A stretch of 23,820 bases of DNA from a virus, in the IMG/VR virus record IMGVR_UViG_3300022751_000039, positions 1-23,820 of that record; one strand, written 5' to 3'. The position numbers and the translations under genes were made by a program. This document shows, piece by piece, positions 3,462 through 18,170 of this stretch. Within the stretch, counting starts at the first letter, position 1. Every line of letters begins with the position of its first letter. Under the pieces are notes generated by a model that worked only from the letters and a program-made list of their open reading frames with translations, had not been told where the DNA came from and searched no databases.

Positions 3462-4632
3462 AATCGGCTAATTTAAGTTTATTTTCCTTTGCTAATATAG
3501 CGTTTTCTAATTTTAATTTAACAACGTTCTGCCGTTCGGTCTCAAAAACCTGATAGCATGCAAGGTGCTGCCACGTCATAAAGGTATCATCTATGTCTAA
3601 AACATTCTCAATAGCATCGGTTAAATCTTGTCCCTTAGGCTTCATACAGTACTCTATATGCCTAACTAAAGATTTTTCCTGATTCTCATAAGTACTGCCA
3701 CCTTTACCGCCAGTAACATAAGCCTCTAATATATCACGTGGTATGCCGTACATACTGCCAATGGCGTAATAGTCACTCCAGTAAGCCTCATCTAATTTAA
3801 GCGCAGCCATGTTGTCGGTGAAACGCTTAATGTCAATCATTGATTTATTGGCGTGTACTTGCTTACTCCCATTTACACTGCTTTCAATGGCAATCTTCTC
3901 GTCATCACCTAACGGCAATTCATTTACATTATTAGGGTCTTGCTTACCGCTAACCATCCATTTACCGCTGTAACGTACGTTAATATTTTTAGCGTCTAAG
4001 GCTTCCTCGCTATTAACGATAATCTTATATAGAGCATCAATCCTACTTATGCCTATATAGAAATTATCATTCATGCCGCTTGATAAATCATGCAGCGGAG
4101 TTATTTCTGATAGTGGAATATATTTAGCCTTGCCGTTTCCAAACTGATATTTAACAACCTCGCCCATAATATCCTTATAGGTAGCTTTTGTTAGTATCAA
4201 ATCCATCATTTTCTGAACGGTTGACGGCTTCCAATCAAGATTAGCAGGGTTTAGGAATTGCAATGTATTTTGATCATTAAACAAACGGCCACCAGTTTTC
4301 CATAGATAGGCAGTGCCCATCATATTCCAAAACATATAATCCCACTTAAATTGCGTCCAGTTTTGTTTGTAGTTAGGGGATTTGCGTAAGGTTTTTAGGT
4401 AATCTTCTTGGCTTTCTGTATTGATTTTACCTAAAGAAAAAAGGTCTGCATTGAGTGCAAACACCTTTAAACAGGCCGGGTTTGATAGGATAACTTTTAT
4501 TTTCTGCTGCGGTGTAAGCATAGTATTTTTAATACCTCTGCTGCTAAACATCCAATACATCCAGTCTTTGCCTGTATTATCGACGGATAAAGGTTGCGGA
4601 TTACCGAATGAAATATTAAAGTTAAATCCCAT
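3454..4632 (-). CDS. Phage portal protein, HK97/SPP1-like
   Basis: The 392-residue length fits the HK97-type portal family, and the gene sits between TerL and the protease gene. Its N-terminal region (WMYWMFSSRGIKN, then a helical segment near residues 40-65) and the central stretch with MMGTAYLWKTGGRLF and QFLNPANLDW fit the wing and clip regions of portals. The later IDIKRFTDNMAALKLDEAYW followed by GIPRDILEAYVTGG is the typical 'xxIAxxFGVPxxLL' block near the stem. The protein would form the dodecameric DNA entry ring at one capsid vertex and bind the terminase. Confidence 0.85.
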   Translation of the reverse strand: MGFNFNISFGNPQPLSVDNTGKDWMYWMFSSRGIKNTMLTPQQKIKVILSNPACLKVFALNADLFSLGKINTESQEDYLKTLRKSPNYKQNWTQFKWDYMFWNMMGTAYLWKTGGRLFNDQNTLQFLNPANLDWKPSTVQKMMDLILTKATYKDIMGEVVKYQFGNGKAKYIPLSEITPLHDLSSGMNDNFYIGISRIDALYKIIVNSEEALDAKNINVRYSGKWMVSGKQDPNNVNELPLGDDEKIAIESSVNGSKQVHANKSMIDIKRFTDNMAALKLDEAYWSDYYAIGSMYGIPRDILEAYVTGGKGGSTYENQEKSLVRHIEYCMKPKGQDLTDAIENVLDIDDTFMTWQHLACYQVFETERQNVVKLKLENAILAKENKLKLADYE

Positions 4633-7551: not shown

Positions 7552-8022
7552 TCAAAAAGTTGTTGGGGGTGTGAAAAAATCGTGCAAATCCTTAATGGCC
7601 TGCTCTAATGTATTTACTTCAATAAACTTACCTCCTTGTAATTCGTTTGACTTTATGAAACGTATTTGTGCTTCACTTAATGAGTCGCCCGGTAATTTTA
7701 TATCTAACATCAATAACACGCCACGCCAGTACCCTGTTATATCTGTAACGCCTGCCAATACACCGATTGACTTTCGCTTTGATAGTGAAGATAAAAAATG
7801 TTTTTTATGCAGATCAAAAATCTGCACCAAGAAGTTAGGTATCTTATCCCCACAAACCCTCTTAACTTGGGCTTGTATAAAAGTATCTGGTATAAACTCA
7901 TTTGGTGTATGCCAAAAGTTACCACGGGTTTCAGGGTAGGTATTGTAAATATGTTGGAATACCTCTTGTTGGAGGCGGTCGTGGGTGTAATTTTCGCCTG
8001 TTTTTTGCTCTTTTTTATTCAT
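7552..8022 (-). CDS. VRR-NUC-like PD-(D/E)xK nuclease
   Basis: This 156-residue protein has the core of the VRR-NUC family: Glu20 in the first helix (RLQQEVFQHI), the WHTPNE segment (37-42), GVTDITGYWRGVLLMLDIK with Asp94 and Asp107-x-Lys109 as the metal-binding and catalytic set, and Q119 in the following helix (LSEAQIRFI). The family includes structure-selective nucleases and phage Holliday-junction-type resolvases. The stretch at about 44-88 is an insertion relative to the minimal domain. It closes the replication module and probably processes branched DNA before packaging. Confidence 0.8.
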   Translation of the reverse strand: MNKKEQKTGENYTHDRLQQEVFQHIYNTYPETRGNFWHTPNEFIPDTFIQAQVKRVCGDKIPNFLVQIFDLHKKHFLSSLSKRKSIGVLAGVTDITGYWRGVLLMLDIKLPGDSLSEAQIRFIKSNELQGGKFIEVNTLEQAIKDLHDFFTPPTTF

Positions 8023-8045
8023 TTTATTGATATTTTTTTAAAAGT

Positions 8046-8294
8046 GTGTAAACCTTCTTTTTCTTAACTAACTGATAATTTGTTATTTACGTTTTTGGTT
8101 TACAGAGTTTACGGTTTACACTACTATTTTTAAAAGTTTAAAACATTATACGCATATACAATACTCACATATATATCTTTCATTTTTAGTGTAAACTCTG
8201 TAAACTCTGTAAACTTTAGCTATAAAATGGCAAAAAAGGTTTACAGAGTTGCCCCAAAAGTTTACAGAGTTTGGGTAAAAGTTTACAGAGTTTT
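8046..8294. repeat. Iteron array with nine GTTTACA cores; candidate replication origin
   Basis: The core GTTTACA, or its complement TGTAAAC, occurs nine times: plus orientation at 8098, 8114, 8239, 8260 and 8281; minus at 8047, 8190, 8199 and 8208. The longer unit GTTTACAGAGTT is intact at 8098, 8239, 8260 and 8281; the last three are spaced exactly 21 bp. The minus-oriented trio forms 9-bp tandem repeats at 8191-8217. An AT-rich stretch (about 8121-8188) separates the groups. It lies between the VapE-like helicase and VRR-NUC genes. Iterons plus an AT-rich unwinding zone next to a replicative helicase suggest an origin; an operator or partition site is the alternative. Confidence 0.7.
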
Positions 8295-9527
8295 TCAAAA
8301 ATTAGCTTTCCTTTCTTCTGTTCCGGGCGTTACATATGGTGCGTATGGGTTTTTTTCATCTGCTAAATTCAATTTAACTATAACATACTTCCTAATAGTA
8401 GTTTTACCAAACTTAACATGATGCTGTTGCAAACCCATTTCTTTTAATATCATGCCTAATTTATTTTGAGATAGTAAAGTTTGGCTATGTATTTTAATAT
8501 AGCTTAATATTTCTGAATTAGTTAATTGGCAGGTTTCTCCAATACATTCCCCTGGCTTTCCAAAATATTTGGCAATCAATTCTTCTTCGGGGTTGCTCTG
8601 CTTAAAGTTAGATGTGCTTTCATTTAGTAGCTTGATTTCTTCTTTAGTTAATTGATACTCAAATCCCTGCTCATAAAGGCACCACGCCTCATAGAAAAGC
8701 AAATCCTTATTAATGGAATTATAATCATCATGGTGTATATCATTTACCAGTATAGGTAATATACGCCTGTTGCCTGTAGGATCGTTTAAAACCTCTTCTT
8801 CGTTGGTGGTGCCACATAACATAGCAATACGCAATAAGTCCTCGCTAACGCTGCCGTATGGCTTCCTGACGCTAAATGTTTCTTTAGATGTAATTGATTT
8901 AAGTTTCTTTTGCTCCGCTTTAGACTTGCCGCCCATCTCATCATCCATAATGATAATTTTCTTAGTCATAAGAATTTCATCATCTTTGCCAGCGTCTAAC
9001 TTACTCTCGGCATAATATTTTTTAAACTTTGCAGGAAGCAAGCGTCTAAACCACTCTGTTTTTCCGCTATTCTGGCCGCCACAAAGCACTAATAATAAAG
9101 GGCTGTGTTTATAGTGCATGGATGCAATCATACTCACATACCATTTTTTAATCCAAATATTAGCGTGTGGAGTATCGGTAGCTATAGACGCAATGAGTTT
9201 GTCAATATATCCAGTTTTAATAACAGGCTCGTTTTCCTTGTAGTAATTTGCTAATTCGTGGAATGGATTATACGTTTCTATAAAGTCGCTGAAAAGTATT
9301 GATTTAACAAGTTCTTTGCTGGATTTTGGATAGTTGGTTTTGATGTTAACATATATTGAATTTACAATACTATCATCAATTGGAGCCTCATTTAATTCTA
9401 AATTTCGGCTAATAGCGTTTAATCTTAAATTATAATTCTTGCTAAGAAAAAACTTAATATCTAATACGCAATTATTCGTTTTAGGCAACTCTTCACCCTC
9501 ATGGGCAATCTTTAATTTTTTAGCCAT
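8295..9527 (-). CDS. VapE-like SF3-type replicative helicase/ATPase
   Basis: This 410-residue protein has Walker A GGQNSGKT (150-157), Walker B KKIIIMDDE (about 189-197), the polar region SITSKETFSVRKPYG and the GTTNEEEVLNDPTGNRR block (239-255), all diagnostic of the virulence-associated E (VapE) family. A C-terminal tail after about residue 330 looks like a winged helix. It has no primase domain of its own; the primase is encoded separately at 12470-13447. It would unwind DNA at the phage origin, and the iteron array starts right at its stop codon. It begins one base after the Pif1-like gene's stop. Confidence 0.85.
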   Translation of the reverse strand: MAKKLKIAHEGEELPKTNNCVLDIKFFLSKNYNLRLNAISRNLELNEAPIDDSIVNSIYVNIKTNYPKSSKELVKSILFSDFIETYNPFHELANYYKENEPVIKTGYIDKLIASIATDTPHANIWIKKWYVSMIASMHYKHSPLLLVLCGGQNSGKTEWFRRLLPAKFKKYYAESKLDAGKDDEILMTKKIIIMDDEMGGKSKAEQKKLKSITSKETFSVRKPYGSVSEDLLRIAMLCGTTNEEEVLNDPTGNRRILPILVNDIHHDDYNSINKDLLFYEAWCLYEQGFEYQLTKEEIKLLNESTSNFKQSNPEEELIAKYFGKPGECIGETCQLTNSEILSYIKIHSQTLLSQNKLGMILKEMGLQQHHVKFGKTTIRKYVIVKLNLADEKNPYAPYVTPGTEERKANF

Positions 9528-10742: not shown

Positions 10743-10898
10743 TTAAGCTGCAATTATCAAAACTGCTCCTTTAATTTTGACCGATTTTAATTCCTTGGTT
10801 TGTATTTGTTTATTTATAGTCGGTCTGCTAACATTATATGCCTTTGAATATTCACTCTTAGTGTATACTTTTTCAGGCTCAATAACTATTTTTTGCAT
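10743..10898 (-). CDS. Small helix-turn-helix DNA-binding protein (51 aa)
   Basis: The ATG at 10896-10898 gives a 51-residue protein starting MQKIVIEPEKVYTKSEYSKA. Residues 13-42 form a likely HTH: YTKSEYSKAYNVSRPTINKQI followed by a short strand pair, like excisionase/MerR-type minimal HTH domains. It lies in the 221-bp gap between the SF2 and Pif1-like helicase genes, same strand. It could be an Xis-like architectural factor, an initiator accessory protein or a regulator. The repeat TGCAATATACTAAT lies just upstream of its start. Confidence 0.65.
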   Translation of the reverse strand: MQKIVIEPEKVYTKSEYSKAYNVSRPTINKQIQTKELKSVKIKGAVLIIAA

Positions 10899-12473: not shown

Positions 12474-13447
12474 ATCAAATTATCTAAAATGTAATCACAT
12501 AAATCATAACCTTTTGGGTTGTTACCCGGTATGCAATCAACACACCAATCGGCGGTAATAAGATTTCGGAGTTGTGTGCATTTATCTAACCATGCTTGCT
12601 CTGCTCCACAATCCGGAATTAGGCTTATCGTTCGGCCTTTCAATACTTGGCAACGTTGCGCTGATAAGTTGGTTAATGATCCGCTTGCAAGCCAAATAAA
12701 ATCGGGATAAATAACGGATGCAACAATGGCCGTCTTTTCTGATTCAACTATTTTAATAGCAGCATCTGGTCGTTTGGTAAGTAGATGTTCACCAAACAAA
12801 CATTGCGATAAAACATAGTCTTTCATTCTTGCGGCCTGATGTACCCATGTTATTAATGGCTTTGGCTCTTTTATTCGCTTGCCAGTTTCTGGATTGTACA
12901 CCATTATTTTACCGCCTCTGATTCTGCCATCTACATCAAACTGCCAAAAGATATTAGCCCCGTGCCAATGCTTAGACGTGCCAAGATTATACTTTAGAAT
13001 TAATGCGTTTGCAGTAGCTTCATCAAATATTTTCACAAGCCAATTAGTAAAGTAATTTACCGTCCCGTTTGGCGGTTCTAATCTAATCGTTGATATTGCA
13101 AGGTTATTATCGGTGTACGATGTCGGCAAATCAACGGCAGCGACAAACTTCCAGTTATTATCTTCGGGGGGCATATTGCAGAAATTAACCAACCACAACA
13201 AAGCGTCCGTATATCCGAAGCCCTGCACCGCCATCACAAAATCAATAACATCACCGCTTTTACCACTAGAAAAGCATTTGAATATATTTTTTGTCGGGTG
13301 AACTGTAAACGATGGTGTACGCTCGTTGCTAAACGGTGACGCTCCCTTATACCCGCTACCGTCACGTTTTAGCTGTACAAAATGGCCTATAACATCGACT
13401 ATGTTGGCCTTTTCTTTTACGTACTTTATTTGTTCGAGTTTGGTCAT
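12470..13447 (-). CDS. DnaG-like primase fragment: degenerate CHC2 domain plus Toprim-like (DUF6371-type) region
   Basis: This 325-residue protein begins with a CHC2-type primase zinc-binding fold (YKGASPFSNERTPSFTVHP, then KNIFKCFSSGKSGDVIDFV). However, the zinc ligands expected as C, H, C, C are Ser37, Ser40, Cys58 and Ser61, so zinc binding is doubtful. The C-terminal half has the Toprim-like glutamate VESEKTA (near 232-238), the IWLASGSLTNL block and LIPDCGAEQAW (near 275-285), as in Bacteroidota mobile-element primases. It would synthesise RNA primers for phage replication together with the separately encoded VapE helicase. It overlaps both neighbours by ATGA. Confidence 0.8.
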   Translation of the reverse strand: MTKLEQIKYVKEKANIVDVIGHFVQLKRDGSGYKGASPFSNERTPSFTVHPTKNIFKCFSSGKSGDVIDFVMAVQGFGYTDALLWLVNFCNMPPEDNNWKFVAAVDLPTSYTDNNLAISTIRLEPPNGTVNYFTNWLVKIFDEATANALILKYNLGTSKHWHGANIFWQFDVDGRIRGGKIMVYNPETGKRIKEPKPLITWVHQAARMKDYVLSQCLFGEHLLTKRPDAAIKIVESEKTAIVASVIYPDFIWLASGSLTNLSAQRCQVLKGRTISLIPDCGAEQAWLDKCTQLRNLITADWCVDCIPGNNPKGYDLCDYILDNLI

Positions 13448-14094
13448 GCCTCGACCTCCATATTTAAGTCGTGCAAAGTTTCTTTGTATTTGAAATTTCT
13501 AACAACCAATAAGCATCTTTTATAGAATTGCTCGCCTATCATATTAGACTTCATTAAATTACATGTCTTACAAGCAGGCACTAAATTGGCAATAACGTTT
13601 GTTCCGCCTTTTGAAATAGGGTAATAGTGGTCGAGGTGCCAAGTTCTTCCATCTAAGTTTCTTGAACAATAGATGCATTTAAATTCATTTACTTTTAAAA
13701 CTGATAGAATTTGATAAGGTGTTATTTTTAATTCACACCTATTATTTGCGCCAGCCGCCTTTTCCTTACACTTAAAGGCAAGCATTGTAGAATATTCTTT
13801 TTCAGAAATATTATCTACAACCTTTCTAATATGTATTGAATAAAGTGGTATATGTAATTCCTCTGTTATGTGAAACTTTATATTTTGTGTCGGGTCTAAC
13901 TTTAAATTAAAGTACTCAATCATTAAATATAAAAGGTTCATTTCTCTGCCATCTATATTTACATAAACGTCTTTAGAGTTTGGCGGTCTAAACGCCTTGC
14001 ATTTTATATCTTTTTTGCCCCTAATAAAAAATGCGTATCCGTCTGTATGAATAAAATAGTTTTTTGACGATCTGATTTTTACAAATTTTTCCAT
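13444..14094 (-). CDS. HNH endonuclease, probably a free-standing homing endonuclease
   Basis: This 216-residue protein has a C-terminal HNH domain with zinc knuckles C140-x2-C143 and C175-x2-C178, the ββα catalytic core HLDHYYP with His153, Asp155 and His156, and Asn170 in NVIANLVPACKTC. The N-terminal half (KNYFIHTDGYAFFIRG, then YVNIDGREMNLLYLMIEYF) resembles NUMOD4-type DNA-recognition regions of phage homing enzymes. It is inserted between a regulator gene and the primase gene, overlapping the primase start by ATGA. A terminator-like hairpin precedes its ATG. A packaging HNH role is unlikely, because the terminase region is elsewhere. Confidence 0.8.
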   Translation of the reverse strand: MEKFVKIRSSKNYFIHTDGYAFFIRGKKDIKCKAFRPPNSKDVYVNIDGREMNLLYLMIEYFNLKLDPTQNIKFHITEELHIPLYSIHIRKVVDNISEKEYSTMLAFKCKEKAAGANNRCELKITPYQILSVLKVNEFKCIYCSRNLDGRTWHLDHYYPISKGGTNVIANLVPACKTCNLMKSNMIGEQFYKRCLLVVRNFKYKETLHDLNMEVEA

Positions 14095-14201: not shown

Positions 14202-14531
14202 CTAATTTTCTTTCAAAATTACTACCCCATGCCCTTTTCTTTTCAACCCATTATCGTATAATACAGCTAATTTATGATGTATTGCTTGCTCCGATTTGCC
14301 TATCTTTTTACCAACTTCCCTATAAGACATGCGCATATAATTTCTCCGCAAAAATCTAACTTCTGCTTGCGTCCAGTAAACATTTTTACCGTCAATAAAT
14401 GACTTTGCAGCCTCGGATTCTATATCATTGGCTAATCTTTCAGCACCTCCATACTTATTAATAAGTCCGTTAAAGATAGCCAGCAACTCCCTGCCGCCAT
14501 CACTCCATTCCTGCATTTCGTGTTGGTTCAT
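14202..14531 (-). CDS. Myb/GcrA-like helix-turn-helix protein
   Basis: In this 109-residue protein the C-terminal region (about 53-99) reads WTQAEVRFLRRNYMRMSYRE then VGKKIGKSEQAIHHKLAVL. This pattern of Trp, three helices and a recognition helix is typical of SANT/GcrA-like DNA-binding domains common in phages. The N-terminal 45 residues are helical and may mediate dimerisation. It probably regulates phage transcription; target unknown. Its ATG overlaps the stop of the methyltransferase gene by one base (TAATG). The terminator-like hairpin follows its stop by about 55 bases. Confidence 0.7.
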   Translation of the reverse strand: MNQHEMQEWSDGGRELLAIFNGLINKYGGAERLANDIESEAAKSFIDGKNVYWTQAEVRFLRRNYMRMSYREVGKKIGKSEQAIHHKLAVLYDNGLKRKGHGVVILKEN

Positions 14532-15728: not shown

Positions 15729-16634
15729 TTAAGCAGCAAACTTTAGCGTGAATTCATTGTCTAGCCAATTCAGGTACTCACGTGCTGCAATAATTTTGCG
15801 TTTTAATAAATCAATGTCGGCCTCGTTTCGCTCAATGGTATATTCTAAAACACGCTCCTTTAAAGGTATATCGTCATATATCATATTACGCTCAATAGCC
15901 GCCTGTGCATCAAGCCAGTTGCCATCATCATCTGTAGGCTGTCCTAACTTATACCATAATTGGCGCTTTTCGGCCTCTATAAGCGACGTGGGCGTATTTA
16001 CAAGGCAATATACCAAATCAAAATATTTTGCGCCTGTAAGCCACATATACCCCACGCCTTGCCAATAATACAAATCGTTCATTTTCTTTACAAACGTGCG
16101 GTAAAATGTGTTGGCATTCCATGAACATTTAGTATCAGGGATGCGCTCGGCTTCGTGGATTGATTTTCCCACAAACATATCGGGTGTGCCATGTATAAAC
16201 AGGTTTTTCAGATACGTTTCATTTTTCTTAAAGAACGTTTTTTTAATGCGGCTATATAGCGTTATAGCATCCTCTTCCATAGCCAAACCCTTTTCAATAT
16301 ACTTGCTGTTTATATCTGCTTTTCGGCGTTTGGTTTCGCTTATCCAAATATCAGTTAGGTGAGTTTTTGCGCCATCGGATAATTGAACATCGTCTTTAAT
16401 TTTCGACAGTTCTTCAACTATTTTAGTCTGCTCAACACATTTTTCTAACCACTTATCATATAGTTTAGATTGAGTAACACCATCTTTATTATATCGTGTA
16501 GGTGCGTTTGCAATCATATCTGAATGTTTCTGCGCAGCCTTTTGCCACTTAACCAAATTACTATCACCTAAAGGCTCACTCATCAAGTGTCCCAAAGCGG
16601 AACACCTGAATAAATATTTATCAAACTTACCCAT
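15729..16634 (-). CDS. YqaJ/lambda-Exo-like recombination exonuclease
   Basis: This 301-residue protein contains the YqaJ-type PD-(D/E)xK core: YIEKGLAMEEDAITLY (112-127) with the conserved Glu, GTPDMFV (149-155) with Asp152, IPDTKCSW (165-172) with Asp167-x-Lys169, and the motif with Gln YYWQGVGYMWLTG (189-201). It is expected to resect double-stranded DNA 5'-3' to load the RecT annealase encoded just upstream; the two genes overlap by TAATG. The pair makes a Red/RecET-like recombination system for repair and genome concatemer formation. Confidence 0.85.
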   Translation of the reverse strand: MGKFDKYLFRCSALGHLMSEPLGDSNLVKWQKAAQKHSDMIANAPTRYNKDGVTQSKLYDKWLEKCVEQTKIVEELSKIKDDVQLSDGAKTHLTDIWISETKRRKADINSKYIEKGLAMEEDAITLYSRIKKTFFKKNETYLKNLFIHGTPDMFVGKSIHEAERIPDTKCSWNANTFYRTFVKKMNDLYYWQGVGYMWLTGAKYFDLVYCLVNTPTSLIEAEKRQLWYKLGQPTDDDGNWLDAQAAIERNMIYDDIPLKERVLEYTIERNEADIDLLKRKIIAAREYLNWLDNEFTLKFAA

Positions 16635-17437
16635 TATTGCAAAGCGTTAAGTTGTTGGTTGTACAAATCCGCTTTAACATCATTGTCGATATGCGGCTGT
16701 AGCTTTTCTAACTCGGCAACAGATTTGCAATCTTCAACCAATAGGGCGAAGCGTTCGTTTTCTTTGTTGGTTTCATCCGTATTAGGATTTAAATTGAAAG
16801 TTGGTCTTTGCGGAGTTTCAGGATCGAAAGCGTCCCCCTCTGGAATTTCTGAACCTGTAATAGTATCGTATAGCCATTTACGGGCTTTCCGTTGCGCCTT
16901 TCCTATAACGGCATCAGTACCCATATACGAGTTCATTTTAACAGGTATCTCAAGGCTTTTAATTTTCTTAACGCCGTTCAATGTCCAATCAACAATAGCG
17001 GTAATAGCCGCACCGTCTTTTGCTGCGTTTACCCTCGGTAATTCAAAGGTTATATCATAGCTAAGTGACGGTATTTTTTTAAGCAGGTAGCCTAAACCCT
17101 CTTTAGTTAAGTAGCAATTATCTGCTATGATATTAAACTGATTTCCGCAAGGCTGAACGCCCATTAAAACCGCCTCAATAAGACAATTTTTAACTATCTC
17201 TAAACTATACCCGCCTGTTTTGTCTTTGTCAGTTTTGAAGCCTAATCGATTACCCTGCAAAGCCATAATCGGTTTCATGTATTCGTCTGTTAATAGCTTC
17301 TTTAATTCACCTGCTGCGCTTGCAACAAGATAGGCTCTTTCAAAGCCCATAAGCTGCTCGGCCAAAACTACAGATGAAACACTTTCCTGTAGTTGGGTTA
17401 TTACTTTGTTATTCGTTATTTTTTCAAGATTGCTCAT
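16634..17437 (-). CDS. recT: RecT-like single-strand annealing protein
   Basis: I chose the ATG at 17435-17437 (MSNLEKITNNKVITQ), giving 267 residues. A longer frame from 17488 would overlap the GIY-YIG gene by 65 bases. RecT landmarks are the MGVQPCGNQFNIIADNCYLT segment (about 94-113 from this start), the following lysine-rich helix, and DAVIGKAQRKARKWLY near residues 180-195. The C-terminal tail is acidic and variable. It anneals complementary strands and works with the downstream YqaJ exonuclease. The start overlaps the end of the homing endonuclease gene by 14 bases. Confidence 0.8.
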   Translation of the reverse strand: MSNLEKITNNKVITQLQESVSSVVLAEQLMGFERAYLVASAAGELKKLLTDEYMKPIMALQGNRLGFKTDKDKTGGYSLEIVKNCLIEAVLMGVQPCGNQFNIIADNCYLTKEGLGYLLKKIPSLSYDITFELPRVNAAKDGAAITAIVDWTLNGVKKIKSLEIPVKMNSYMGTDAVIGKAQRKARKWLYDTITGSEIPEGDAFDPETPQRPTFNLNPNTDETNKENERFALLVEDCKSVAELEKLQPHIDNDVKADLYNQQLNALQ

Positions 17438-18134
17438 TGTTTTTGTTTTTAAATTGCCAGTTAAATCCACCTGCGCTTTTTTGAACACCTTTAATAGATT
17501 TGGTTATATTAGACGGATGGATTTTTATTTCATCAGCCGCAACCTTTGCGCTAATGTATTCTTTAATTATTTTGCCATTTTGCAAAGCAATGACGGGCTT
17601 GTTTCCGTTTGAATTACCTATTTGATTTATCTTTGCCTTTTGCCTCCTTTTTTCGTTTGCTTCATTAGTTTGCTTTCTGCCTTTATTTATAAGGCTTATT
17701 TTTTTACGGGTTTCTTCTGAAACCACATGTGTAGTTTTTGGGCCAGTTAGATTAGCTATTATTTTAGACTTTTCTTCAATGGTTTTAGCCGCCCATATTT
17801 CTTTTGATTTTGCTGAAAGTCTGCTTTTTAAATCGTCCGATAAGCATCTCCCGCCATTCCCCTTACCGCCCTCATTCATGTTATAAGACGGGCTAAGTTC
17901 TTTAATGAATCGCTTTTCTTCTAAATGCAAGTCCTGCCCATTGTCGCAGCATAATAAAACCTCAAAAGTAAAATTTGATATACCGTGTTTTCTGAAAGCC
18001 CTTGCAAGGGCAGTTGTTTTATTTTTTACGTTTTTAGGAGTTAAGTGCTCTTGTTTTCTGCGTTCAAAATTATTGGTTAACCCTATATAGAAATTGCCAT
18101 TAACCTTATTTGTTATTTTATAAATACACCTCAT
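17424..18134 (-). CDS. GIY-YIG homing endonuclease with NUMOD tail
   Basis: From ATG 18132-18134 the protein has 236 residues. The N-terminal GIY-YIG nuclease domain shows CIYKITN (3-9), FYIGLT (15-20), RRKQEH (25-30) and a later catalytic Glu in HLEEKRFIKE. The middle is a basic NUMOD3-like segment (SEETRKKISLINKGRKQ). The C-terminus, KPVIALQNGKIIKEYISAKV onward, ends GGFNWQFK, a NUMOD1-type DNA-binding repeat. It is a free-standing phage homing enzyme of the Seg type. It overlaps recT by 14 bases and has its own promoter-like sequence just upstream. Confidence 0.88.
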   Translation of the reverse strand: MRCIYKITNKVNGNFYIGLTNNFERRKQEHLTPKNVKNKTTALARAFRKHGISNFTFEVLLCCDNGQDLHLEEKRFIKELSPSYNMNEGGKGNGGRCLSDDLKSRLSAKSKEIWAAKTIEEKSKIIANLTGPKTTHVVSEETRKKISLINKGRKQTNEANEKRRQKAKINQIGNSNGNKPVIALQNGKIIKEYISAKVAADEIKIHPSNITKSIKGVQKSAGGFNWQFKNKNNEQS

Positions 18135-18138
18135 TAAA

Positions 18139-18170
18139 CAAATATACAAAAAATTTCCGTGTTCTTGAAA
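18139..18170 (-). promoter_or_regulatory. Promoter-like site directly upstream of the GIY-YIG gene
   Basis: On the minus strand TATATTTG (18139-18146) matches the -7 consensus TAnnTTTG. TTTC (18167-18170) lies 20 bases upstream, one base off the -33 TTTG. The ATG follows TATATTTG by four bases, so the transcript would be leaderless or nearly so. It suggests the homing endonuclease gene carries its own promoter. Confidence 0.5.

Follow-up and report, generated by a model that had tools for sequence, protein, structure and literature searches.

The stretch of DNA analyzed here, referred to as the window, consists of 23,820 nucleotides of phage DNA in which a dense array of short repeats follows the vapE gene. 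It is very likely that this array (8047-8292) is the replication origin of the phage, organized as in the rep-ori regions of SaPI/PICI elements and read by the C-terminal winged helix of VapE. This reading, which derives from sequence comparison, is based on the position of the array 3′ of vapE, kept in most relatives, the constraint on the core sites, the location of an AT-rich gap between groups of sites that are mostly inverted, the covariation of the core word with the winged helix of VapE, and the match between this layout and the functionally proven SaPI/PICI origins (PMC6092414, PMC7581432). An earlier note on the same DNA had proposed that the iteron array beside vapE was a likely phage origin, and the comparative evidence supports that proposal. 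The replication origin of an uncultured phage would then be placed to about 250 bp, with independent comparative support.

The repeat array and its genomic setting

The window comes from a tailed phage. The genes for the capsid (PF05065) and the large terminase (PF04466) are found on one side of the array, and a replication block on the vapE strand is found on the other, comprising VapE, a PIF1/Dda-like helicase, a ResIII helicase, a CHC2/DUF6371 primase, an HNH nuclease, and a YqaJ-like exonuclease (phrog_5715). Neither a DNA polymerase, among the genes identified in the window, nor any tRNA was found. A host in the Bacteroidota is probable, as relatives sit in Mucilaginibacter, Pedobacter, Pontibacter, and Chitinophaga genomes. 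The features under consideration are listed below, where L089 is the closest relative of the window.

7552-8022, minus strand: VRR-NUC-like endonuclease, 156 aa, weak family evidence; the next gene after the array, a neighbor outside the origin
8047-8053, minus strand: single outlying iteron, kept in L089, which has one more site beyond it
8098-8120, plus strand: iteron group 3, GTTTACA at 8098, degenerate GTTTACG at 8107, GTTTACA at 8114; the middle site is a perfect core in L089
8121-8189, no strand: AT-rich gap of 69 bp between the inverted groups 2 and 3, 80% A+T compared with 64% for the window
8190-8214, minus strand: iteron group 2, tandem trio of GTTTACAGA at 9-bp spacing (8190, 8199, 8208), kept in L089
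8239-8292, plus strand: iteron group 1, three copies of GTTTACAGAGTT at exact 21-bp spacing (8239, 8260, 8281), adjoining the vapE stop codon; order and spacing kept in L089
8047-, 8098+, 8114+, 8190-, 8199-, 8208-, 8239+, 8260+, 8281+: start and strand of each exact core
8295-9527, minus strand: vapE, VapE-like SF3 helicase and predicted replication initiator, 410 aa, without a primase domain of its own
8364-8540, minus strand: predicted winged-helix DNA-reading domain of VapE (residues 330-388), from the secondary structure of the model and the covariation of the word
10743-10898: HTH_17 protein, 51 aa
12470-13447: CHC2-type primase
14202-14531: HTH protein, 109 aa

The nine exact copies of the core GTTTACA/TGTAAAC span 8047-8287, all of them inside the 272-bp intergenic gap at 8023-8294, beyond both vapE and the next gene and outside coding sequence. 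The number of cores in 241 bp, the three copies at exactly 21-bp spacing, the 9-bp tandem trio in the opposite orientation, and the AT-rich stretch between the groups, here placed between inverted trios, all agree with the earlier description; the four extended copies reported there became six copies of the 12-mer GTTTACAGAGTT once both strands were counted. The first extended site ends 2 bp past the vapE stop codon. Along the direction of vapE, the sites are ordered as three TGTAAAC (21-bp spacing), three GTTTACA in the other orientation (9-bp spacing), the 69-bp AT-rich gap, then TGTAAAC, the degenerate CGTAAAC, and TGTAAAC, and last an outlying GTTTACA. The degenerate tenth site (8107-8113) makes 8098-8120 a tandem trio as well, with steps of 9 and 7 bp.

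Only three more copies of the core are present in the other 23.5 kb. The count of this 7-mer in the whole window, 12 compared with 5.5 expected, is a modest enrichment, and the significant part is the local clustering: nine copies of any 7-mer within the 350 bp after the vapE stop codon were obtained in none of 100 Markov shuffles. The GC skew, proposed earlier as a check, was uninformative, as it is negative to about 20 kb with a sign that follows the coding strand, shifts only at the gene strand switch, and does not change at the array.

Comparison with L089, whose VapE is 76% identical, showed that every site of the array is kept in the same order and orientation and at nearly equal spacing. 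The core bases are identical at 63 of 63 positions compared with 140 of 188 for the other bases of the gap, which shows constraint on the core sites (Fisher p 2e-7). Loss of the repeats in relatives with the same replication genes had been named as evidence that would speak against an origin; since the repeats are kept in the vapE-bearing L089, no such loss is seen there. A search of viral contigs for GTTTACAGAGTTTACA returned 82 stretches, mostly single matches lacking the array layout, and only one of them, from the close relative 3300044832_000025, was truly related. Joining of the ends of the L089 contig was tried in order to read upstream of its vapE, and no overlap was found.

Other accumulations of short repeats were seen in the fetched DNA. 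In L089, a predicted ORF overlaps with dense AGGCGGCG repeats at 4101-4450, which reach 13 copies per 350 bp. In the unrelated contig L018, a predicted ORF contains seven GTTTACA cores, one every 9 bp (4006-4066), so that it shares the 9-bp word of the window, apparently by chance or slippage, and a 73-kb phage contig, L085, has eleven GTTTACA sites with 9-bp tandem trios at 937-1258, possibly another origin with the same word. Despite their many GTTTACA sites, L018 and L085 were not taken as relatives of the array, as these sites are not beside a vapE gene within the fetched DNA.

Arrays downstream of vapE in other phages and prophages

Loci with vapE were collected from two sources, viral contigs and bacterial genomes, the latter limited to one per species. 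Dereplication at 85% identity left 51 loci, and scoring was possible for 50 of these. An array was defined as at least five copies of one 7-mer within the 350 bp after the vapE stop codon. Such arrays were present in 39 of the 50 loci (78%) compared with 3 of 830 other windows (0.4%) of the same loci; these background windows are mostly coding, and shuffles of the gaps themselves agree with the result. Two Streptococcus satellite phages and the S. thermophilus phage SW30, used as positive controls, also have an array 3′ of rep. In the remaining 11 loci, fewer than five sites were found right after vapE: three have an array 0.4-1.1 kb farther, behind inserted genes, one of which encodes a GIY-YIG nuclease, several have four sites, and the rest have none. 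In Bacteroides SJC25, Leuconostoc phiLNTR3, and Xanthomonas FoX5, which are more distant phages with VapE, no array follows the helicase gene, and the rule therefore has exceptions.

The word varies by lineage (TGTAAAC, GGTAGTAA, CTGTAAC, GGTAACA, GTTGCAA, GTGTACA, TGTCGCA, CTGTGCC, and others), and the layout is constant, with tandem groups of 8-12-bp period, mostly inverted, around an AT-rich gap. Despite the differing words, the spacing between sites in the same orientation is concentrated at 8-12 bp. The sites flanking the largest gap are inverted in 33 of 39 arrays; the median length of this gap is 91 bp, and its A+T content exceeds that of its own locus in 35 of 39 (Wilcoxon p 7e-9). The gene after the array varies by locus and can encode VRR-NUC, as in several relatives, a ResIII helicase, a DNA methylase, DUF5681, a MazG-type hydrolase, or a Toprim protein. 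The array is linked to vapE and not to the next gene. In the window, the product of that gene matched phrog_824 (8e-9) and the endonuclease family phrog_93 (3e-4), and it was also found by a profile built from the post-array genes of relatives.

Covariation of the core word with VapE

The vapE product matched Pfam PF05272 (2e-32) and PHROG primase/helicase families. The best PDB match of its AF2 model (mean pLDDT 85.9) was 7pds, PriRep1 with dsDNA (Z 24.5, model residues 10-391, 370 aligned), and the next family in the structure comparison had a Z of 14.0. The sequence of 7pds was also matched at the profile level (4e-16). PriRep1 is a SaPI initiator, and the neighboring PDB entry 7ola carries the name SaPI5 primase-helicase. 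The C-terminal region of the model consists of a strand (330-335), two helices (337-348 and 354-363), and a hairpin (368-386). This fold is consistent with a winged helix in which the predicted recognition helix (354-363) and wing strands (368-373 and 376-386) coincide with the segment that covaries with the word.

The covariation was analyzed in 39 arrays by Mantel tests, which can be anticonservative on related sequences: the partial correlation of the word with the C-terminal domain given the helicase core was 0.30 (p 0.0005), compared with 0.02 (p 0.34) for the helicase core given the C-terminal domain. In sliding windows of 16 residues, the highest values (0.29-0.38) are reached at residues 353-392, and only 0.03 remains at 385-400. 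As the latter residues are encoded nearer the array, the signal is not accounted for by simple linkage. The correlation of the VRR-NUC protein with the word was 0.17 (p 0.03), dropping to 0.14 (p 0.05) when the recognition region was controlled for, and that of the recognition region with the word remained 0.41 when the downstream VRR-NUC protein was controlled for.

Certain residues are associated with particular words. Pro377, in the wing, is present in 9 of 9 loci with GTAGT words and in 1 of 30 others (Fisher p 5e-8), and His370 is present in 5 of 5 loci with TGTAAA words and in 2 of 34 others (p 4e-5); both tests ignore phylogeny and use positions picked post hoc. Two loci, L156 and L171, share 90% of the helicase core and have words that are one base apart (GGTAGTAA and GGTTGTAA), with Pro and Thr, respectively, at residue 377, among other differences in the domain. 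The core word appears to change together with the DNA-reading tip of VapE, and the VapE C-terminus is most likely the binder of the array. We consider it rather probable that a broad clade of Bacteroidota phages and prophages has PICI-type origins in which repeated diversification of the words went along with that of the VapE recognition helix and wing, leaving a partly readable code; the Pro377/GTAGT and His370/TGTAAA associations and the Pro to Thr difference at 377 would be examples of it.

These comparisons bear on other functions that the array could have. One of them is an operator or promoter-control array, where a phage regulator binds the repeats and controls the downstream VRR-NUC, terminase, and capsid block. 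The gap is indeed at the junction of the replication and the packaging and structural blocks, upstream of a gene start, tandem sites can act as operators, and an origin may regulate transcription too. However, the word covaries with the VapE winged helix, and an operator dedicated to the post-array gene would hardly be expected to remain beside vapE in relatives where that gene is a different one. Promoter-like matches in the gap were at chance level (2 compared with 2.0 expected) in a scan that omits Bacteroidota promoters. Operator function is therefore unlikely. It is quite improbable that the array is an origin bound chiefly by another protein that recruits VapE, such as the HTH_17 protein of 51 residues, which the earlier note had named as a possible binder, or the 109-aa HTH protein. 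Both are small, predicted to bind DNA, and encoded within the replication block, but the covariation peak is inside VapE. In the fetched loci, most of which reach 3 kb upstream only, relatives of the 51-aa protein were found in just three, all of them with other words, and the search for relatives of the 109-aa protein gave none.

A packaging (pac/cos) or terminase recognition site would be in keeping with the terminase genes located about 1.5-2 kb downstream in the window. It is a very improbable function for an array that is unchanged in L089, where the post-array proteins look different by eye, whose word follows VapE, and that has counterparts at the same place in satellite phages with a PICI-type rep. 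The array can hardly be credited as the product of a neutral expansion of tandem repeats or as a non-coding RNA element without a part in initiation: slippage can make 9-bp tandem units like those in L018, but the sites of the array, in two orientations and at several spacings, are unchanged at every base in L089, the position of the array is conserved over many lineages, and it has no Rfam match.

Relation to known origins and proposed initiation

The interpretation of the array as an origin read by VapE agrees with the properties of PICI origins, which are located immediately 3′ of rep and have two sets of iterons flanking an AT-rich region; a pri-rep-ori segment replicates (PMC6092414). The SaPI Rep reads the iterons directly downstream through its C-terminal domain (PMC7581432). 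At the sequence level, the window has the same features: a VapE/D5-class helicase, a putative origin immediately 3′ of the initiator gene, and an AT-rich gap (8121-8189) flanked by inverted iteron groups (8190-8214, minus strand, and 8098-8120, plus strand). With SaPIbov1, SaPI1, and the E. coli PICI EcCICFT073 (PMC6092414, PMC7581432), it would share a self-loading initiator helicase with the origin immediately 3′ of its gene, the fold of PriRep1 (7pds) as matched by the VapE model, and the C-terminal domain as origin reader, a role shown for SaPI Rep and supported for the VapE of the window by covariation. It differs in the iteron words, in having the primase as a separate protein of the CHC2 type, and in being part of a tailed phage with its own capsid and large terminase and a probable Bacteroidota host. 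By analogy, the origin layout is very probably of a known kind, that of the SaPI/PICI origins shown to replicate, found here in such a phage. This layout has been called unique to PICIs (PMC6092414); the PICI-like layout is common in phages of this VapE group, so it is not restricted to PICIs.

Other assignments were considered and rejected. The window is not a PICI, that is, a helper-dependent satellite, as it encodes a capsid (PF05065) and a large terminase (PF04466) itself. An iteron-plasmid replicon of the Rep_3/RepA type was discarded because no match to such a Rep family was obtained for either of the two genes beside the array; a weak RepL match (0.0095), below the cut-off, was to the distant protein encoded at 14202-14531. 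In a lambda-type origin, the iterons lie within the gene for an O-like initiator, whereas the array is located in the intergenic gap at 8023-8294.

Other parallels exist. In the putative SCCmec origin, the initiator helicase Cch2 binds direct repeats just downstream of its operon through its isolated C-terminal domain (PMC7581432), but Cch2 belongs to the D5/SaPI5 branch and has only three short iterons, compared with nine to ten sites and a VapE-type helicase in the window. In phage SW30, a gene for a VapE-like helicase is followed by 6-9 copies of (C)GGTAAC; the word is different, the host belongs to the Firmicutes, and the sequence is distant. Origins of phages related to SW30 are already known in S. 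thermophilus. The Flavobacterium phages vB_FspM_pippi8-1 and vB_FspS_mymlan6-1 share with the window the order VapE-type helicase, iteron array, VRR-NUC gene, and differ in their words, TGGAACA and AGGTAAC, and in the GIY-YIG nuclease gene inside the mymlan6-1 array. None of the papers searched joins VapE, phage, replication origin, and iteron, and published work beyond these papers may already cover some of these origins.

We infer the following course of initiation. VapE, the product of the gene immediately upstream, would read the GTTTACA cores via its C-terminal winged helix, and VapE molecules would line up on the tandem groups facing opposite ways across the AT-rich gap. Two helicase rings would presumably assemble at this gap, melt it (8121-8189), and start forks. 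Primers would come from the separate CHC2-type primase of the phage (12470-13447), and the synthesis would be carried out by a host polymerase.

The survey provides a simple rule by which the origins of many other phages could be located: the DNA 3′ of vapE is searched for two groups of short tandem repeats, inverted relative to each other, with an AT-rich gap between them. The naturally occurring variants of word and winged helix make up an unusually good data set for an origin-recognition code of SaPI-type initiators; if such a code holds, the origin specificity of uncultured phages would be predictable from sequence. The suggested sharing of one origin design by phages and satellites bears on origin competition and incompatibility between them.

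Genes for nucleases and methyltransferases were noted as well. GIY-YIG genes are located inside or just before the post-vapE array in mymlan6-1 (L095:7134-8042), with two AGGTAAC sites before the nuclease gene and the rest after it, and in L129 (2994-3898); origins may be homing targets of these nucleases. In the window, a GIY-YIG nuclease with a NUMOD-like domain (17424-18149, minus strand) overlaps the start of a 284-aa gene with a GTG start codon (16634-17488), and the HNH nuclease gene (13444-14094, minus strand) abuts the primase gene; both are likely mobile nucleases of the phage. Two N6/N4 DNA methyltransferase genes (PF01555; 14531-15472 and 18918-19703, both on the minus strand) are present in this one small phage genome.
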